Below are positions 101-7,151 of a DNA stretch of 64,000 nt, one piece after another. The notes beneath the pieces were generated by a model. The model searched no databases and had not been told where the DNA came from. It worked only from the letters and a program-made list of their open reading frames with translations. Every line of letters begins with the position of its first letter. Position 1 is the first letter of the stretch. This DNA comes from SAR324 cluster bacterium (GTDB lineage Bacteria; SAR324; NAC60-12): positions 1 to 64,000 of the forward strand of contig JADFZZ010000012.1 of NCBI GenBank assembly GCA_015232315.1, written 5' to 3'. The position numbers were made by a program, and so were the translations under genes.

Positions 101-173
101 AGTGTATCGGCTTACGTTGATAGCCGTGCGTAATTAAAAAGATAATGAAATCAATTATATTACTTAAAGTTGG

Positions 174-187
174 TGCCGAGAAAGGGA
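174..187 (+). repeat. att direct repeat, distal copy
   Basis: TGCCGAGAAAGGGA repeats exactly the last 14 bp of the tRNA-Leu gene at 7010-7023. One mismatch later the match resumes for three bases (ATCG here, CTCG in the tRNA). It is the expected remnant of the original tRNA 3' end displaced by integration. Confidence 0.85.
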
Positions 188-202
188 ATCGTTGTTTCCG
201 AG

Positions 203-219
203 TAATTCTTACTGAAAAT
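203..219 (+). repeat. Left copy of 17-bp terminal inverted repeat of the element
   Basis: TAATTCTTACTGAAAAT is the exact reverse complement of 6948-6964. It sits 16 bp inside the distal att repeat. A perfect 17-bp inverted match placed just inside both att sites suggests an integrase arm-type or excision-factor binding site. Confidence 0.8.
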
Positions 220-358
220 ATTAACTAAATCCGAAAAGCAGAGTATGAAAATTGACTGAATTTTACTAAAAAATAGCATATATTCAAAGTTGAATTAACT
301 TCAAATATATTACAAAAATCATTTGTCACTTTCAATTCAAATAAATTGTTTAGAAAAT

Positions 359-389
359 GAATGTAATGAAATAACAAATCATTACATTC
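359..389. promoter_or_regulatory. Perfect inverted repeat and half-sites upstream of the short recombinase
   Basis: GAATGTAATGA (359-369) and its reverse complement TCATTACATTC (379-389) are separated by 9 bp. Two more copies of the half-site follow: GAATGTAAT at 448-456 and CATTACATT at 481-489, the last lying 24 bp before the recombinase start codon. The arrangement looks like a set of operator or recombination-accessory sites. Function is inferred from position only. Confidence 0.5.
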
Positions 390-512
390 GCTAAAATCTA
401 CTGTTAAACCAGTTACTTAAAAAAATATCCGGATTTATCTTGATGTTGAATGTAATATATTATATAGTTTTTTCATAAAACATTACATTGAAATTTAAAT
501 TTTGGGGGTCGT

Positions 513-1082
513 ATGAAAAAACGGGGTTTAACTGAAAATGAAATAAAAAAATTGGAGATCTATATTAGGGGAACCGGATCTCTAAGAGATTTGGTAATTT
601 TCCGATTATCATTAGATACGATGTTACGGGTCGGTGATGTTTTAACTTTAAAAGTTAAAGATGTGTTTTTTAGTGATGAAGTGAAAGAAACCTTTAAGGT
701 GAAGATGATGAAAACGGAAAATTCCGTCACGTGTTCATTATCAGAAAAAACCCGTGAAATTCTGAAAAAACACATTCTGGAAAATCATTTATCAAATGAT
801 GATTTTTTATTTCAAGGACGAAAGAAAACCGGAAAATCTATATCAAAGGTTCAATGGCACAGAATCCTGAAAAGTTTTGTTGATGCGGTTGGAATTGACG
901 AAAATGAAATTGCGACTCACTCTCTGAGAAAATCTCTACCGACAATAATATATAAAAAAACCGGAAATTTAAAAGTTTGTCAAAATCTACTCGGTCATAA
1001 GTCTATTTCAAACACGTCATTGTATATTGGAGTTGATGAAAAAGAGTCATTGGACATCAAAAAATCATTAAATATTATCTAA
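513..1082 (+). CDS. Short tyrosine recombinase (catalytic domain only)
   Basis: This 189-aa protein has the hallmarks of a phage-integrase-family catalytic domain: the first arginine in LRVGDVLTLKVKDV (about residue 40), the H-x-x-R box in THSLRKS, a following LGH box and the nucleophile tyrosine in NTSLYIG near the C-terminus. It lacks the N-terminal core-binding domain of standard 300-400-aa integrases, so it may act with the larger integrase, resolve multimers of the excised circle, or control directionality. It is preceded by a strong purine-rich ribosome site (GGGGG) and by AATGTAAT-type inverted repeats. It lies at the end of the element opposite to the main integrase. Its family is clear; its role in the element is not. 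Confidence 0.85.
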   Translation: MKKRGLTENEIKKLEIYIRGTGSLRDLVIFRLSLDTMLRVGDVLTLKVKDVFFSDEVKETFKVKMMKTENSVTCSLSEKTREILKKHILENHLSNDDFLFQGRKKTGKSISKVQWHRILKSFVDAVGIDENEIATHSLRKSLPTIIYKKTGNLKVCQNLLGHKSISNTSLYIGVDEKESLDIKKSLNII

Positions 1083-1086
1083 AGTG

Positions 1087-1098
1087 GTTATCGGCCCG
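1087..1098 (+). repeat. Left copy of 12-bp GC-rich inverted repeat flanking the next gene
   Basis: GTTATCGGCCCG here is the exact reverse complement of CGGGCCGATAAC at 2110-2121. Two GC-rich perfect 12-mers in an otherwise AT-rich element, one on each side of the gene at 1292-2056, are unlikely to be chance. They could mark a cassette or be shared regulator sites. Confidence 0.6.
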
Positions 1099-1107
1099 AC
1101 AAATGAC

Positions 1108-1130
1108 AATAAATTGTCTGACAATTTATT
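1108..1130. promoter_or_regulatory. Near-perfect dyad after the recombinase gene
   Basis: AATAAATTGTC (1108-1118) and GACAATTTATT (1120-1130) form an 11-bp arm dyad around a single T. A one-base centre is poor for an RNA hairpin loop, so an operator is more likely than a terminator. It lies between the recombinase stop and the promoter of the next gene. Confidence 0.5.
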
Positions 1131-1184
1131 TAAAATAATACATTGAAAAATATCATTATTCAACATTGATTTTTATCAAAATAT

Positions 1185-1213
1185 TATTAATCAAATCAAT
1201 GATTTGGTTAATA
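1185..1213. promoter_or_regulatory. Inverted repeat upstream of the promoter of the 1292 gene
   Basis: TATTAATCAAATC (1185-1197) and GATTTGGTTAATA (1201-1213) are reverse complements with one mismatch and a 3-bp spacer. The repeat ends 12 bp before the -35 box at 1225, a typical operator position. The ribbon-helix-helix proteins of the element are candidate binders (inference). Confidence 0.5.
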
Positions 1214-1224
1214 AAAACAATGAC

Positions 1225-1253
1225 TTGATTATTTTTTCAATTTTTGTTATAAT
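1225..1253 (+). promoter_or_regulatory. Sigma-70-type promoter
   Basis: TTGATT at 1225-1230 and TATAAT at 1248-1253 are separated by 17 bp, matching the consensus layout. It points to the gene starting at 1292, leaving a short leader of about 30 nt. Confidence 0.65.
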
Positions 1254-1291
1254 ACATATAAAGTTAATGAATTTTTTATATGGTGACTATT

Positions 1292-2056
1292 ATGACAAAA
1301 ATAATCAGGGATAATTTTTTCAATATTACAGAATTGAAAGAAAAAGGTTTTACTGACACGTCAATTAAAAAATTTTTAGGAAGTTGTGACGTTGAAAAAC
1401 ATAACCCCTATAATGTAAAATATAAAATAAAACTTTACGGAAAAGAACGAGTTTTATTAGTCGAAAAAAGTGAAAATTATAAAATATGGAAGGAAGATGC
1501 TGAAAAAAGAAAAGAGAAATTAAAACAAACAAAAATCAAAAATTCGTCATTAATCGTTAATGATCAAATGAAAGAACTGAAAGAACTTTATGAGTCCATC
1601 AAGGATGAAATTAAATCGATGAATATCGATAAGAAAGAACTGGATGAATTAAAAGCGATCTCAATCAGTGCATATAATGATTATCAAAGTGATAAATTTT
1701 ATCAAAGTGATAAATATGACCCTAACTTTTGTTCGGAATTTTCCGATGAATCTTTTTTAAAAAGGATAATGGTTAATTTTGTAAGACATCAACAAACTGA
1801 TTATGACACTTTTATGAATGTAATTAACATTAACCGACGAAATCTGACGGAAAGTCACTCGTCTAAATTAGACGAGTGGAAAAGTGTTATATACAAAAAA
1901 ATAAACGAAGGAGTTTATACAAAAATATCAGAAGTTTATCCGGAGTTAAATGATGAAATAGAAAATCAAATGACTCAAAAAGAAATAGATAAAAAAACCG
2001 AAAATTATTTTCCTGTTTTAATAGAATCTAAAACAAATTTAGAAAATTTTTTTTAG
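1292..2056 (+). CDS. Unknown element protein with predicted helical middle
   Basis: About 254 residues, rich in lysine, glutamate and asparagine. The first 60 residues (LKEKGFTDTSIKKFLG, then NPY and KLYGKERV) resemble a small N-terminal domain seen in assorted bacterial and phage proteins, where a 'G-W/F-T-x-x-x-I-x-x-x-L-G-x-P/C-D' stretch precedes a tyrosine-rich strand and 'x-L-Y-x-x-x-R-V'; this is recognition from memory, not a search. Residues about 80-125 look coiled-coil. Start ATG 1292 is preferred over ATG 1280 because GGTGA lies six bases upstream. It has its own consensus promoter and is followed by a strong hairpin, so it is probably monocistronic. Function unknown. Confidence 0.7.
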   Translation: MTKIIRDNFFNITELKEKGFTDTSIKKFLGSCDVEKHNPYNVKYKIKLYGKERVLLVEKSENYKIWKEDAEKRKEKLKQTKIKNSSLIVNDQMKELKELYESIKDEIKSMNIDKKELDELKAISISAYNDYQSDKFYQSDKYDPNFCSEFSDESFLKRIMVNFVRHQQTDYDTFMNVININRRNLTESHSSKLDEWKSVIYKKINEGVYTKISEVYPELNDEIENQMTQKEIDKKTENYFPVLIESKTNLENFF

Positions 2057-2078
2057 AAACGAAATCATCTCTATAAAT

Positions 2079-2107
2079 AACCGTGTATTGATTTTCAATA
2101 CACGGTT
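2079..2107 (+). terminator. 13-bp perfect hairpin after the 1292 gene
   Basis: AACCGTGTATTGA and TCAATACACGGTT pair perfectly around a TTT loop, 23 bp after the stop codon. The stem is strong for this AT-rich element. The following bases (TCCGGG) are not a U-tract, so termination may be Rho-assisted or bidirectional. Confidence 0.6.
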
Positions 2108-2109
2108 TC

Positions 2110-2121
2110 CGGGCCGATAAC
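2110..2121 (-). repeat. Right copy of 12-bp GC-rich inverted repeat
   Basis: CGGGCCGATAAC pairs with 1087-1098. It sits directly between the hairpin at 2079-2107 and the ribosome-binding site of the next gene. Confidence 0.6.
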
Positions 2122-2148
2122 GGAAAATTAAGTTTAAAGGAGATGAAT

Positions 2149-2655
2149 ATGAAAACTTTTAAGGAAATTCTAAAAGAAGAACTGGATGACTACCAACCAA
2201 TGGATTCTGAAGAAACAACTGATGATGATGAACCGGAAAATTCTGAGCTGGATGATTTCAGATTCCGTGAAATCGAATCGGATGAAGAAGATACGTCTAT
2301 CTACCTGATCATTAAAACATCTACCAGAGAGTGTTTTATCTACTCACCTGAAAAAAATTTATTAACACCGACGGGAACAGAACTTTTTAAAGATGTTTTT
2401 TTGGTGGAAGAAAAAATGAACCTTTTTAAACCGGTATCAGAAAACGGTCTGATTCAGATTTTAATAGAAACTCAATTTTTATCAAAATCTCAAAAGAAAA
2501 GGATTTTACTGAACGAACCGAAAAAGGTTAAAAGGAGTTTATACCTGGATAAAATACTCTACGAAAAGTTAGATAAAGTCTCACGTAAAACCGGAAAAAT
2601 GAAGTCAAGGATGATCCAGGAGTCACTAATAGATTATCTAAAGAAAATATCATAA
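2149..2655 (+). CDS. Acidic protein with C-terminal ribbon-helix-helix domain
   Basis: About 168 residues. Residues 10-45 are very acidic (runs such as TTDDDEPENSE), the middle is of unknown fold, and the last 45 residues read KRSLYLDKILYEKLDKVSRK followed by a second helix, which is the strand-helix-helix layout of a ribbon-helix-helix DNA-binding domain (Arc/CopG class). I start it at ATG 2149 because the AAAGGAG at 2136-2142 is six bases away, whereas the in-frame ATG at 2143 abuts it. It could be a transcriptional repressor, a partition or copy-control protein, or an excisionase-like accessory. The long acidic N-terminal part is unusual for a simple repressor. Confidence 0.75.
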   Translation: MKTFKEILKEELDDYQPMDSEETTDDDEPENSELDDFRFREIESDEEDTSIYLIIKTSTRECFIYSPEKNLLTPTGTELFKDVFLVEEKMNLFKPVSENGLIQILIETQFLSKSQKKRILLNEPKKVKRSLYLDKILYEKLDKVSRKTGKMKSRMIQESLIDYLKKIS

Positions 2656-2670
2656 AAAACACATCACCAC

Positions 2671-2688
2671 GGGGTTTTTATTAACCCC
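2671..2688 (+). terminator. Weak hairpin after the acidic RHH gene
   Basis: GGGGTT (2671-2676) can pair with AACCCC (2683-2688) around a TTTATT loop, 15 bp after the stop. No U-tract follows, so the call is tentative. Confidence 0.35.
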
Positions 2689-2810
2689 CCCCATCCATCT
2701 ACCCCCTACAATAAAAATTCATCATTTTCATCAATTTCATCATTTTTTATAATTTTTTATAAATAGTTATGAAACAAAAAATTTTATGAATATTTTAAAT
2801 AAGGGAAAAT

Positions 2811-3041
2811 ATGATTTTAAAGAAAAAAATTCTGTATGAAAATTTGACGGATTCGATGAACGAAGGTGTTAAAAGTGTTTTAGATGAACTCAATGATATA
2901 TTTTACAATCGACTGAATTTTCTAACCGGTTCATTTAAAGAAACCGACAAATATATTTTAGAATCGAGAAATTATTTGATGAAATCAATTAATTCTCTAC
3001 AAGAAGAATATTCTGAAATAATTGATGAAAACAATGAATAA
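2811..3041 (+). CDS. Small unknown helical protein
   Basis: A 76-aa, probably all-helical protein with no family I recognise. AAGGGA lies about 6-8 bases before the ATG. It ends 10 bp before the start of the ribbon-helix-helix gene at 3052, so the two are likely co-transcribed and could form a pair such as a regulator with its partner or antitoxin with toxin (inference). Base composition matches the rest of the element. Confidence 0.6.
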   Translation: MILKKKILYENLTDSMNEGVKSVLDELNDIFYNRLNFLTGSFKETDKYILESRNYLMKSINSLQEEYSEIIDENNE

Positions 3042-3051
3042 TAAGGATAGT

Positions 3052-3219
3052 ATGACAAGTTATAAAAGAAAAAAAGATGGTGAAGAAATTTCAAAAATTT
3101 CATTTACCGTTCATAAAGATGTTTTTATGAAGTTCAAGGAAGTCACAAATGAAAAAAATATTTCGATTCCGAGATTAATGGAAACGTTTATTTTAAACTA
3201 CCTGGAAAGTGTTAACTAA
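3052..3219 (+). CDS. Small ribbon-helix-helix DNA-binding protein
   Basis: A 55-aa protein whose core KISFTVHKDVFMKFKEVTNE plus the following helix PRLMETFILNYLES has the strand-helix-helix pattern of CopG/Arc-type repressors. I place the start at ATG 3052, preceded by AAGGAT at 3042-3047; earlier in-frame ATGs at 3022 and 3034 overlap the preceding gene. Proteins of this size commonly act as plasmid copy-number repressors or antitoxins. Its position a few hundred bases before the polymerase-like gene suggests a role in controlling replication (inference). Confidence 0.7.
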   Translation: MTSYKRKKDGEEISKISFTVHKDVFMKFKEVTNEKNISIPRLMETFILNYLESVN

Positions 3220-3226
3220 CAAAAAA

Positions 3227-3272
3227 CAACCCCTTTTTTATTTTGTTTGGAGACAGAGAAAAAAGGGGGTTG
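3227..3272 (+). terminator. Long stem-loop after the small RHH gene
   Basis: CAACCCCTTTTTT (3227-3239) pairs with AAAAAAGGGGGTTG (3259-3272), leaving one bulged G and a 19-nt loop. It begins 8 bp after the stop codon at 3219. The A/T half of the stem means it can act as a terminator in either direction; it could also be the 5' structure of a small RNA. Confidence 0.55.
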
Positions 3273-3285
3273 AAAGGAAAACAAA

Positions 3286-3444
3286 ATGGAAAAATATGAA
3301 ATTAAAATTTATACATCACTATTTATATTGTTCATTTCTCAGAAAAAAAAAGAACCACCCCCGAACGTTGAGCCACCCCCAGAAGTCAAAGAGTTGAAAT
3401 CATTTAAAAATTTTGATTTGATTCGTTCGATTTTCAGTGATTAG
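3286..3444 (+). CDS. Small membrane-anchored, proline-rich protein (52 aa)
   Basis: An ATG at 3286 preceded by AAAGGA (3273-3278) opens a 52-codon frame ending at TAG 3442-3444. The product has a short hydrophobic segment (IYTSLFILFIS, residues 8-18), then a basic KKK and a proline repeat (EPPPNVEPPPEVKE), then a polar tail. The segment is short for a full transmembrane helix. This frame has a better ribosome site than the competing frame at 3209-3397, which starts inside the upstream gene. Small one-helix proteins are common in plasmids and phages, but I cannot assign a function. Confidence 0.45.
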   Translation: MEKYEIKIYTSLFILFISQKKKEPPPNVEPPPEVKELKSFKNFDLIRSIFSD

Positions 3445-3622
3445 TCATACTCAAAAAACACTATCAAAAGTTTCATAATACACTATATTTCTTTTATTTT
3501 CTTCCTTGATTCTAATTAAATCAATAACTTATCCCTGTTTTCATCATACATTAAGGGGAAGGGAAGGGAAAGGAAGGGAAGGAAAGATAATGTAATATAA
3601 ATAGATAATGAAGAAGTAATGA
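3445..3622. other. AT-rich intergenic stretch before the polymerase gene; possible origin region
   Basis: This non-coding stretch has highly AT-rich DNA followed by a purine G/A tract at 3553-3585 and an AATGTAAT motif at 3588-3595 like the sites upstream of the short recombinase. An A/T-rich stretch beside a structured tract upstream of a replication gene is a common origin layout, but nothing here proves replication starts in this place. Confidence 0.35.
3555..3578 (+). other. G-quadruplex-forming tract
   Basis: Four G-runs (GGGG, GGG, GGG, GGG) separated by AA, AA and AAAGGAA fit the canonical G3+N1-7 quadruplex pattern on the plus strand. The tract continues as GAAGGAAAG and so is also a homopurine run able to form triplex DNA. 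It ends 44 bp before the start codon of the polymerase-like gene. Confidence 0.7.
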
Positions 3623-5077
3623 ATGAAAAAATTAAATTCTAATCACTTCTATATTTATAATGTGAATGGTTCAACTTATAACATTCAATTTCATCTGGAT
3701 ACAGAACCTTTTGTTGAAAAATATATTGATGACATTCTTAAAAAAACAAAATTGAAAATACCACAACAATATCTGGTTAGAACCTTATTCATCCATATAT
3801 TAAATTCCCAATTTAAAAACAGAAATATTGATGATTTTATTCCACTAAATTCAAATTTCTTAAATTCTTGGTTTGGTTCATCCAATAGAAAATTACACAG
3901 TGATTTTACAAAAAAGTTTTTAGAAAAAGATTCTTATTATCAAAAAGGAACTAAAGCATTTGGTTACAAAATCAAAAAAAGGATAATCCACATATTAAAT
4001 GAATTAAGAAACAAGGAACCTAAACCCAAACCAACAAAAACCCCGATATTAAAATCGGAATTTGTTTATGGTGAAAGTGAAAATCAATTTAAAGTTCCAA
4101 AACTGATTCAAAACGTCATAAACAGTTTTTCCAAATGTTACATCAATTTGGAAAGATTGGAAGAATTTGAAACGAACTTGAATGATGATGTTAAGAACTT
4201 GGAATATCTCCAATATTCCATAGGGGAATTCAAACGGCATATTTACCGACAATCATTTAAAAAAGGGTATTACAAACCGGCGTATATTCTTGGTGGAACT
4301 GGTTTAAGCGGAAGAATTTTTGAAAAAGGAACGTTGCCAGCACAGCGGATAAAGAAAATTATAAAAAAAGAAATTTTTTATGGGGATGAATATATCAATA
4401 TTGATATTGTCAGAAGTCAACCAACAATTCTGCTGTATTACTTCATTAAATATGAATTGAAGTCCGAATTCTTCAAACACTATGTAAATAATGATTCAAT
4501 CATAAATTCTTGGGTTTCTGAAGGGATTCCAAAACAAATCATTAAGAGTTTGATTTTTTACAAGTTGTTTTCCCTATACACGGGAAAAATGACACTGAAG
4601 AATCCTGTTGTTACTAAGGCCATATATGATGAAACTCAAGAATTGGATGTTGACATAAATCCACAATCTATCCTGGATGTATTAAACAAAAAGTTTGAAC
4701 CCCTAAATGAAGACATTAAAAGATGGAAATTTCATTTAAAACAGAATGTTACTTTTAACAACAATGTTTTTATCAATAGTTGTGGTTTTCCTGTAAATTT
4801 TGAAAATTATGAACAGAAGAAAAGAACATTGATTTATACAGCCTCATTATTACAGTCCAAAGAAGCAGAAATCATACATAAAATGATTATTGAATTCACG
4901 AAACAGGGCGTAAATGTTAACTCTCACGAGTTTGATGGTTGCGTCTTATATGTGCCTGAGGGGATGAATGATGAATCGCTGAAAAAACTAATCAATAAAA
5001 CATTGGAAAATATTGATTTTGAAGATAAGGATATGTTACTTCCGATGCTAAGAATTGAAAGGAAACCCTTTGTGTGA
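3623..5077 (+). CDS. Family-A-like DNA polymerase of TV-Pol type (putative)
   Basis: This 484-aa protein shows three ordered polymerase-like motifs in its C-terminal half. Motif A is NIDIVRSQPTILLYYF, with the likely metal-binding D261. A motif-B-like helix reads KKRTLIYTASLLQSKEAEII, comparable to the R/K...Q-G-x-A-A-D-I helix of Pol I. Motif C is HEFDGCVLYVP with D438. The 'D-x-x-x-x-Q-P-x-x-L' form of motif A and 'F/H-D-G' form of motif C match the TV-Pol group (described for phages, bacterial mobile elements and virophages) rather than cellular Pol I. No exonuclease, primase or helicase motif is visible in the first 250 residues. It probably replicates the excised element. Its 3' end overlaps the convergent integrase gene by 30 bp. 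Assignment is by motif reading only. Confidence 0.6.
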   Translation: MKKLNSNHFYIYNVNGSTYNIQFHLDTEPFVEKYIDDILKKTKLKIPQQYLVRTLFIHILNSQFKNRNIDDFIPLNSNFLNSWFGSSNRKLHSDFTKKFLEKDSYYQKGTKAFGYKIKKRIIHILNELRNKEPKPKPTKTPILKSEFVYGESENQFKVPKLIQNVINSFSKCYINLERLEEFETNLNDDVKNLEYLQYSIGEFKRHIYRQSFKKGYYKPAYILGGTGLSGRIFEKGTLPAQRIKKIIKKEIFYGDEYINIDIVRSQPTILLYYFIKYELKSEFFKHYVNNDSIINSWVSEGIPKQIIKSLIFYKLFSLYTGKMTLKNPVVTKAIYDETQELDVDINPQSILDVLNKKFEPLNEDIKRWKFHLKQNVTFNNNVFINSCGFPVNFENYEQKKRTLIYTASLLQSKEAEIIHKMIIEFTKQGVNVNSHEFDGCVLYVPEGMNDESLKKLINKTLENIDFEDKDMLLPMLRIERKPFV

Positions 5078-6895
5078 TTGTTTTTCAATTTCTTTCCACA
5101 CTTCTTTTAACCCGTTCCAATCAATTGAAAACTTCAACTTTGGAATCACAACATCATTAATTTTTTTCACAGCAAATTCGGAGGTGTAAACCGTTCTTGA
5201 AATTTTCCCTGATGTCCAACCGCAGTATCTTTCAATAAAAATTTCTTCTACTTCATTTTCATAAAGTTTGGTTGCGACATTTTTTCTAAAGGTATGAAAC
5301 ACTTTTTTTCCATTTTCAGTATTTTTGGAATTTTTGACATCAACTTTTTTTAGGTAATCATTAAACCACTTGGATAATTGTTTTCCGTAGGATTCCGCAA
5401 AATAGTTCAATCCCGGAAACAATCTTTTTTCTCCGTTTCCGTTAGGTGAATATCCTAAAATGTCTAAATATTCTTGAAACCCAATTTCAAAAAGTTGTGG
5501 ATGTATCGGAATATTCCTTTTTGACATTCTGTTTTTTAGTCTCTGTGTGAGTCGTTCATCTGATAGTTTAATATAAAAAATTCCATCTTCTGATTTATTG
5601 ATGTCGTCAAGAAAGATTTGGCAAATTTCGTTTTGCCTTGCGCCACTAAACAACCCAAAAATTGGAATCCAAAATTTGGCACACCTAATTTCAAAACTTT
5701 GAGAATTATTGATTGAGTCCAGATAATTTTGTTTATCAAAAATTTTCTTTAAGTCATCGTTGCTGAAAACAACAGGTAGTGAGTCCTTTGTATTGGTTAA
5801 CTTGCCAACAGTTACACTTACAACTGGAGATTTTTGGATATAATCATTTCGTTCTAACCAATTAAAAAATGTTTTGATATTTAATATCAAATTATTACAA
5901 GTTCTTAGGGTTCTTGGTTTTTCTCCCAATTCCAATATTTCTTGAATTGTTTTTTCTCTAAATTTGGGGTTTTTACTCAGGTTTGGTGGTAATCGTTTTA
6001 GAATATTTGTAAAATCGTTCAGTTTATCTTTGGAATACTCTGAAATGTCATTATCGCCAAGAACCCAGATAAAAAGTTTCAGAAGGGATTCATATTCATT
6101 GATTGTTTGTTGCTTTGTTCCTTTTTCTCTATGATAGTCCAAGTATTGAGGAATCATAGTTGAAAGTAACTTTGGATTTTGGATGGGATTTGTTGGACTG
6201 ATTTCAGTTGTTTGAATGATTTTTGGTGAAGGTAATTCTTGAATTTTTTTAAATTGATGAACTACTTCTGACGTGGGAATAATAGAACTTATATTTGATG
6301 CTTCATATTCCTGTTTTGCTTGTGAAAAAATATCCCATTCTGACTGTTTTTCTCCACTAACTAAAGCAATTTTCAGGTTCAAGATTTCTTCTTTTATCTT
6401 AATCAACCCTTGAAATAAACTATTGTATTCAAAAGTGTTTTGCTTTGGAATTTCAAATGCGGTTAGATTTAGAGTTTCTCTTATCTCCATATCAACTTTT
6501 TTTTTTAATGAGGGGAAATCCTCCTTGTTTTTCAAATCACTAAGATGTTGATTTAGATTTGAAATTCTTTTTTCGTTGGCATTTTCTGTCCAATCAGTAA
6601 TTCCCCAAAAGTAATGCTCGCTATGTCTTTTGCCAGAATGAAGTTTTGTTTTTAAAATCAATTTAATGTCTTCAATCGTTAATTCTTTTCCCATTTCCCC
6701 ATTCCTAATCGCAAAATAAAGACTTTGCGATTCAATATATAAATATTTGGAAAGATGTTTTGCCTGGCGTTTATCAACTGTGTGAAGGGACAACAAAAAT
6801 TGTCTCTTTTTCAGAGTTTCTATCAAATCCAAGGGGATTGTGGAAAGGAAAAAATAAGAATGGGAAGATTCTTTGTAGATATAGAAGTTACGCAT
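5048..6895 (-). CDS. Tyrosine-type site-specific integrase of the element
   Basis: A 615-aa integrase. The N-terminus (FYIYKESSHSYFFLSTIP, then DKRQAKHLSKYL) matches the DUF6538-type start of large integrases; a core-binding SAM-like domain precedes residue ~400; the catalytic domain has R in SGARQNEICQI, a basic K in the beta-hairpin region, H-x-x-R in FHTFRKN, W in CGWTSG and the nucleophile tyrosine in RTVYTSEF. It starts about 115 bp from the tRNA-Leu 3' end, so it is the obvious enzyme for insertion at that site. The ATG at 6895 is the only sensible start. It converges with the polymerase gene. Confidence 0.93.
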   Translation of the reverse strand: MRNFYIYKESSHSYFFLSTIPLDLIETLKKRQFLLSLHTVDKRQAKHLSKYLYIESQSLYFAIRNGEMGKELTIEDIKLILKTKLHSGKRHSEHYFWGITDWTENANEKRISNLNQHLSDLKNKEDFPSLKKKVDMEIRETLNLTAFEIPKQNTFEYNSLFQGLIKIKEEILNLKIALVSGEKQSEWDIFSQAKQEYEASNISSIIPTSEVVHQFKKIQELPSPKIIQTTEISPTNPIQNPKLLSTMIPQYLDYHREKGTKQQTINEYESLLKLFIWVLGDNDISEYSKDKLNDFTNILKRLPPNLSKNPKFREKTIQEILELGEKPRTLRTCNNLILNIKTFFNWLERNDYIQKSPVVSVTVGKLTNTKDSLPVVFSNDDLKKIFDKQNYLDSINNSQSFEIRCAKFWIPIFGLFSGARQNEICQIFLDDINKSEDGIFYIKLSDERLTQRLKNRMSKRNIPIHPQLFEIGFQEYLDILGYSPNGNGEKRLFPGLNYFAESYGKQLSKWFNDYLKKVDVKNSKNTENGKKVFHTFRKNVATKLYENEVEEIFIERYCGWTSGKISRTVYTSEFAVKKINDVVIPKLKFSIDWNGLKEVWKEIEKQSHKGFPFNS

Positions 6896-6947
6896 TTCTT
6901 ACCTGAAAAATTGACTACTAACATTGAGTAGATTTTGAAATAAATCA

Positions 6948-6964
6948 ATTTTCAGTAAGAATTA
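6948..6964 (-). repeat. Right copy of 17-bp terminal inverted repeat of the element
   Basis: ATTTTCAGTAAGAATTA is the exact reverse complement of 203-219. It lies 53 bp upstream of the integrase start and 46 bp inside the tRNA-proximal att repeat, so it could also act as an operator for the integrase promoter. Confidence 0.8.
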
Positions 6965-7009
6965 AGTCGGTAACCTATTGAAATAAAATGAATTTTAATC
7001 AATGGGGAA

Positions 7010-7023
7010 TGCCGAGAAAGGGA
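7010..7023 (+). repeat. att direct repeat, tRNA-proximal copy
   Basis: TGCCGAGAAAGGGA, identical to 174-187. It supplies the discriminator base, the 3' acceptor strand and part of the T-arm of tRNA-Leu, so the tRNA stays intact after insertion. Confidence 0.85.
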
Positions 7024-7092
7024 CTCGAACCCTTACAGGCGTTGCCCACTACCCCCTCAAGATAGCGTGTCTACCAATTTCACCACCTCGGC
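7010..7092 (-). tRNA. tRNA-Leu (anticodon GAG)
   Basis: Read on the minus strand, GCCGAGG pairs with TCTCGGC to form the acceptor stem (one G-U pair), followed by a D-arm with GGTAGAC, anticodon stem CTATC/GGTAG enclosing loop TTGAGGG (anticodon GAG), a long class II variable arm with GGGC, and a T-arm AAGGG/CCCTT with loop TTCGAGT. A73 follows and CCA is not encoded. The long variable arm fits leucine. It is the integration site of the element to its left. Confidence 0.95.
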
Positions 7093-7151
7093 ATATAAAA
7101 AAGATCCGGCATGAATATGTAATTCTCCTCTGAGACGCAAGTCTTTTTTCT

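Follow-up and report, generated by a model that had tools for sequence, protein, structure and literature searches.

A compact tRNA-Leu-integrated element with a divergent TV-Pol-like gene in a SAR324 bacterium

The first 64,000 nucleotides of contig JADFZZ010000012.1 (SAR324 cluster bacterium, assembly GCA_015232315.1), hereafter the window, carry an AT-rich element of 6,836 bp (positions 174-7009, 81% coding) at a tRNA-Leu(GAG) gene. It encodes two tyrosine recombinases and a protein which, on profile and fold evidence, is a very divergent TV-Pol. We consider it to be, probably, a complete and still functional integrative element, which its integrase would excise and its TV-Pol would copy as a circle. 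A compact, self-integrating element with such a polymerase and precise ends at 174 and 7023 had been proposed in a preliminary description of this DNA, and sequence, profile and fold evidence agree with that proposal. Small, with its ends placed to the base and a single polymerase, the element makes a prediction published in 2008, namely that N-domain TV-Pols lacking a helicase are primase-polymerases (Iyer, Abhiman, Aravind 2008, PMC2579912), testable with very few parts.

Boundaries and target site

An exact 14-bp repeat, TGCCGAGAAAGGGA, lies at both edges of the region, and its right copy forms the end of the tRNA-Leu(GAG) gene (Table 1). The match reaches 17 of 18 bases once the following bases are counted, and the repeat occurs nowhere else in the window; when the left 3 kb were shuffled 500 times under a Markov model, no match to the tRNA was longer than 12 bases. 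Base composition changes across the same limits, with 29.0% G+C in the element (174-7009) versus 46.2% in 7094-64000. The att repeats and the AT-rich tRNA-Leu island of the preliminary description are thus both present.

Together with the adjacent CCA, the left att copy reads TCCCTTTCTCGGCACCA on the minus strand. A CCA end is encoded in 21 of the 27 tRNA-Leu(GAG) genes of the phylum, including that of genome G003; the tRNA gene now present in the window has none. The retention of this typical end by the left copy helps to fix the boundaries, as does the inverted repeat described below. The simplest reading of these sequences is that the original tRNA 3' end was displaced to the far side of the element and that an element-borne end took its place.

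Next to the att copies, a 17-bp perfect inverted repeat provides candidate integrase arm sites: when the end regions were shuffled 20,000 times, only one shuffle gave a repeat of at least 17 bp, and in the predicted excised circle the two copies sit 15 and 45 bp from the att core, one on either side. The predicted circle junction (7009 joined to 174) would read ...AATGGGGAATGCCGAGAAAGGGAATCGTTG..., and the restored chromosomal site ...AGTTGGTGCCGAGAAAGGGACTCGAACCC....

An orthologous locus, of the kind that the preliminary description had named as a check, was found in G003 (G003:C185): there, too, the tRNA-Leu(GAG) gene, intact and CCA-encoding, has the polyprenyl synthase gene as its neighbour. 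That contig stops 112 bp past the tRNA, which makes it an intact site and not a fully seen empty one. No tRNA was found near the polyprenyl synthase gene of the other relatives checked, within the stretch fetched.

The window opens at the contig start (G000:C12), inside an insertion sequence tail that runs to about base 125, which leaves only about 48 bp of left chromosomal flank visible. The preliminary description had also raised the possibility of an island extending beyond 174. We saw no sign of leftward continuation and rejected an island running through the contig end, as base 174 has the displaced CCA end and 1-125 are an insertion sequence tail.

Two other genomes of the phylum have a contig that ends within a tRNA-Leu(GAG)-like gene, of which it contains the 5' half, with 98% identity over 48 bases (G006:C36:8-55 and G027:C44:8-55). 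These may be insertions or assembly breaks; G006 carries an intact tRNA-Leu(GAG) copy elsewhere.

The polymerase

The 484-aa protein, described beforehand as polymerase-like, has no Pfam or NCBIfam match. Single-sequence searches with it came out empty for phages and plasmids, for viral and GTDB contigs, for 116 relatives and for the phylum, matches at E up to 10 being judged noise. A PDB sequence search returned chance matches only (ulilysin), and phrog_18374 (E 0.0018) was set aside because the match does not cover the catalytic motifs. The family was instead entered through phage Ma-LMM01, named as a TV-Pol carrier by Iyer et al. (PMC2579912), whose TV-Pol gene we identified from its motifs as MAP_030. 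From MAP_030, TV-Pols were reached in Calothrix plasmid6, two Polaromonas plasmids, viral contigs and the SAR324 metagenome-assembled genome JADGAT01, which belongs to the same family as the genome of the window. A hidden Markov model (HMM) built from these TV-Pols, with the window protein left out, matches residues 53-471 of that protein with E 1.7e-12, whereas the best of 2,000 shuffles gave about 0.8; the match starts inside the TV-Pol N-terminal domain.

The motifs point the same way. R231, Q241, D261, K308 and D438-G439 are invariant in an 11-row alignment. They include the two catalytic Asp residues of the RRM-like palm (D261 and D438) and the beta-hairpin Arg that contacts the template (R231, unchanged throughout alignments A1 and A4). 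For the fingers motif RxxxK the picture is mixed: K308 is invariant, and the Arg position, variable among the aligned relatives, is Lys here (KQIIK). The C-terminal ending ...KPF is common to this protein and several other TV-Pols. In alignment A1, identity to the full-length homologues of Ma-LMM01, Calothrix plasmid6, pH8NP1 and pW9NP1 is 14-23%; A1 was too diverse for a pattern search, for which A2, made of relatives only, worked.

An AlphaFold model computed with the 11-row alignment has a mean predicted local distance difference test score (pLDDT) of 66, and the palm and the C-terminal region reach 80-92 in places (a model from the single sequence, with a pLDDT of 36, was of no use). All 50 of the 50 PDB matches listed by Foldseek for the model are family-A DNA polymerases (best E 4.8e-8). 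Their template modelling scores are modest (0.32-0.46 by query), in keeping with a partial model. Matches to viral structures include virophage replication proteins (Zamilon, Qinghai Lake). HMM, motifs and fold together show the protein to be a very divergent TV-Pol.

Among the relatives, a second SAR324 TV-Pol, on the 5.2-kb contig G004:C75, is part of a 726-aa open frame (L053 891-3068), in which about 195 residues precede the TV-Pol domains; the opposite end of this contig carries an HTH_17 gene. The TV-Pol of Polaromonas pH8NP1 (L048 6095-7600) carries the annotation 'Clp protease N-terminal domain-containing protein' and its pW9NP1 relative as 'hypothetical protein'. In Calothrix plasmid6, the TV-Pol gene spans the start of the circular record (L047 12314-13693 and 1-483) and lies near a serine recombinase gene; the PLSDB gene table does not list it at full length. 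Finally, on one viral contig (L068 7477-10035), a DNA polymerase III delta-prime/clamp-loader-type gene near the TV-Pol has an intein with a LAGLIDADG domain.

Recombinases and gene content

All seven open reading frames (ORFs) of the element are open. Six lie on the plus strand, the polymerase gene being the last; the seventh, that of the 615-aa integrase, is convergent with it, the two overlapping by 30 bp. As previously described, the large integrase stands on the tRNA side, with its gene 115 bp from the tRNA.

Table 1. Features of the element and of its immediate surroundings
Feature	Position	Strand	Evidence or remark
Insertion sequence tail, outside the element	1-125	plus	transposase C-terminus in frame, ...FPDLFSWLVDQMGDLPLSRNSQKRIFSNPLNL then stop
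Chromosomal flank	126-173		171-173 TGG, read on the minus strand as the CCA that ended the original tRNA-Leu
Distal att copy, putative displaced original tRNA 3' end	174-187	minus	reads TCCCTTTCTCGGCA then CCA; exact 14-bp repeat
Candidate arm site, left, 17 bp	203-219	plus	TAATTCTTACTGAAAAT; perfect inverted repeat with 6948-6964
Second tyrosine recombinase, 189 aa, catalytic domain only, FimB/E-sized	513-1082	plus	PF00589 1.1e-26
Orphan protein, 258 aa	1280-2056	plus	no significant family
Probable regulator, 170 aa, ribbon-helix-helix domain at the C-terminus	2143-2655	plus	RHH_3 7.4e-7
Orphan ORF, 76 aa	2811-3041	plus	ORF only
Arc-like ribbon-helix-helix protein, 55 aa, probable regulator	3052-3219	plus	phrog_3180 2.6e-6
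GGGAA purine tract, directly upstream of the polymerase gene	3556-3586	plus	tandem repeat
TV-Pol, 484 aa, family-A-like polymerase with TV-Pol N-terminal domain	3623-5077	plus
Tyrosine integrase, 615 aa, DUF6538 N-terminus	5048-6895	minus	Pfam Phage_integrase 1.5e-9, DUF6538 1.5e-6
Candidate arm site, right, 17 bp	6948-6964	minus	perfect inverted repeat with 203-219
tRNA-proximal att copy, present tRNA 3' end, without CCA	7010-7023	minus
tRNA-Leu(GAG), target gene	7009-7093	minus	ARAGORN and Rfam RF00005; element-supplied 3' end

The second tyrosine recombinase, the left-end CCA remnant and the 17-bp inverted repeat are additions to the preliminary description. This recombinase also matches the tyrosine-type DNA invertase model NF007370 (3.4e-8) and XerA (7.5e-26); its active site includes R39 and an HxxR box at 136, and the active-site boxes of both recombinases, searched by pattern, are intact. 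Among the smaller genes, the phrog_3180 match of the 55-aa protein was obtained by scanning from the in-frame start at 3022, and the 52 SAR324-phylum genomes sampled contain no relative of the 258-aa protein and none of the 170-aa protein. That the GGGAA tract may be an origin or control region is speculative. As reported earlier for virion, conjugation and helicase genes, none of these and no relaxase gene was found by Pfam, PHROGs, NCBIfam or PADLOC, and no defence gene was matched by PADLOC.

Relatives of the 615-aa integrase, 23-38% identical, occur in 20 of the 52 genomes, the window's own included. Of four loci of this clade that we inspected, two follow a tRNA-Pro directly and one a tmRNA, each codirectional with the gene ahead of it. 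We see a tRNA-targeting integrase clade spread across a phylum whose mobile DNA is little studied. The three loci are L129 (G017:C95) after tRNA-Pro(CGG), L131 (G017:C18) after tRNA-Pro(GGG) and L132 (G048:C30) after tmRNA; G017 by itself accounts for seven matches. A search for the polymerase beside the same integrase elsewhere, suggested in the preliminary description, gave no second pairing: no TV-Pol was found beside the clade integrases in the other genomes of the phylum. TV-Pols were found in only two of them, G004 and G012, on contigs other than those with their integrase matches, one of these TV-Pol contigs being only 5.2 kb long. The pairing of a TV-Pol with a clade integrase at this locus is the only one found.

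Known systems, mechanism and alternatives

The preliminary description saw here a type not widely described, which holds in part only: Iyer et al. 2008 (PMC2579912) already outlined mobile elements that pair N-domain TV-Pols, with no fused D5 helicase, with lambda-type integrases, resolvases or transposases. We place the element in that kind because its N-terminal TV-Pol domain and adjacent integrase fit their description: it combines an N-domain TV-Pol, without D5 helicase fusion, and a tyrosine integrase within a few kilobases. It differs in having ends set by att copies, a CCA remnant and arm repeats, in its two tyrosine recombinases, two ribbon-helix-helix proteins and SAR324 host, and in a polymerase far more divergent than the relatives aligned. 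It is therefore a divergent addition to a kind rarely delimited this cleanly. The homologous full-length TV-Pols occur in other contexts: a Microcystis phage for Ma-LMM01, a serine-recombinase plasmid for Calothrix plasmid6 and RepA plasmids for Polaromonas pH8NP1 and pW9NP1.

Pipolins (PMC7385651) offer an analogy for a way of life. They are integrated, in Escherichia coli at tRNA-Leu, with att direct repeats, one of which overlaps the tRNA on the opposite strand, and carry one or more tyrosine recombinases and their own DNA polymerase, thought to replicate the element. The present element shares the site, the repeats, the recombinases and an element-borne DNA polymerase, but this is a family-A-like TV-Pol, as opposed to the family-B piPolB. 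It would thus work like a pipolin without being one.

In the reading that we favour, the 615-aa integrase would bind both the att core and the 17-bp arms and recombine the core with the 3' end of tRNA-Leu(GAG), swapping that end for the element-borne copy, an outcome seen in the sequence. The reverse reaction would free a 6,836-bp circle, on which the TV-Pol, judging from its family, may act as a primase-polymerase that starts and extends DNA synthesis with a borrowed host helicase and replisome. The two ribbon-helix-helix proteins may hold expression and copy number down or set their timing; the 189-aa recombinase may resolve multimers or help excision. As the element has no transfer gene, its spread from cell to cell would need a helper or passive uptake.

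Several observations weigh against a functional, self-copying element. The polymerase has Phe437 in place of a nearly invariant motif-C His, and its branch is the longest of the TV-Pol tree (3.65 changes per column), in which, with a long-branch warning, it could not be placed; given Phe437 and this strong divergence, polymerase activity is not assured. The element contains no helicase gene, and a search for iterons or a clear origin found nothing beyond the GGGAA tract, so that no origin is proven. Moreover, the element occurs in one of the 52 genomes sampled, and its circle junction is absent from IMG/VR viral contigs, in a scan which reaches close relatives only.

For CCPol-MP of SCCmec, which is classed with the TV-Pols, DNA primase-polymerase activity has been demonstrated (PMC7581432), and the authors of that 2020 study knew of no other biochemically characterised TV-Pol. 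It is likewise a family-A polymerase of an integrative element and primes DNA synthesis; by contrast, its operon (PMC7581432, PMC10061031) also encodes Cch2, a helicase, and MP, an OB-fold partner, neither of which is seen here, and its element uses large serine recombinases. CCPol needs MP to prime, and the fact that no such OB-fold partner was recognised in our element is a further point against. The idea that the element is a minimal, self-synthesising family-A counterpart of pipolins, in which one highly divergent TV-Pol alone primes and copies the circle without its own helicase or single-stranded DNA-binding-type partner, is put forward as tentative, with the chances rather against it.

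The terms 'integrative plasmid' and 'phage satellite' of the preliminary description are interpretive labels. A satellite would stay silent in tRNA-Leu until a helper infection led to excision, copying by the TV-Pol and packaging in helper capsids. PICMI115 (PMC10803314), a satellite of 6,110 bp that lacks capsid-remodelling genes and carries int, alpA and prim plus three genes of unknown function, does resemble our element in size and gene plan (an integrase, small regulators, a priming enzyme, few orphans, no capsid genes), and TV-Pols are found in phages and prophage-like contigs. However, PICMI satellites lie next to fis, not in tRNA-Leu, and have AlpA and a DUF3987/DUF5906 primase, domains absent from our Pfam scan. 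Neither packaging nor capsid-remodelling genes were found, the PADLOC scan was empty, and no integrase relative was detected in the IMG/VR viral contigs, within the same reach as for the circle junction. We therefore regard a satellite as unlikely.

It is still less probable that we are looking at a decaying island, the remnant of a prophage or plasmid whose polymerase drifts and no longer acts. The long branch and the Phe437 substitution would suit such decay, as would the rarity of the element, its two orphan ORFs and the insertion sequence that landed beside it. Yet that insertion sequence lies outside the element, every ORF is open, both catalytic Asp residues and the recombinase active-site boxes are intact, the att copies are exact and the arm repeats perfect.

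Polymerase-like domains also occur in defence systems. A role of the polymerase in host or defence functions (repair, template copying) instead of element replication would suit the lack of an adjacent helicase but is very improbable, as there is no PADLOC match, most TV-Pol relatives located are on phages, plasmids and viral contigs (a few are in unresolved contigs), and the family has been described as mobile-element replication enzymes (PMC2579912).

Finally, the first 127 bases of the window, which cover the insertion sequence tail, are common to another contig end, hence the assembly break at this place. About 50 bp of this tail (77-125, ending ...GGCTTACGTTGATAGCC) recur, whole or in part, at some 13 other sites of the genome, often with a second conserved block ahead, which suggests a family of related copies resembling miniature inverted-repeat transposable elements.

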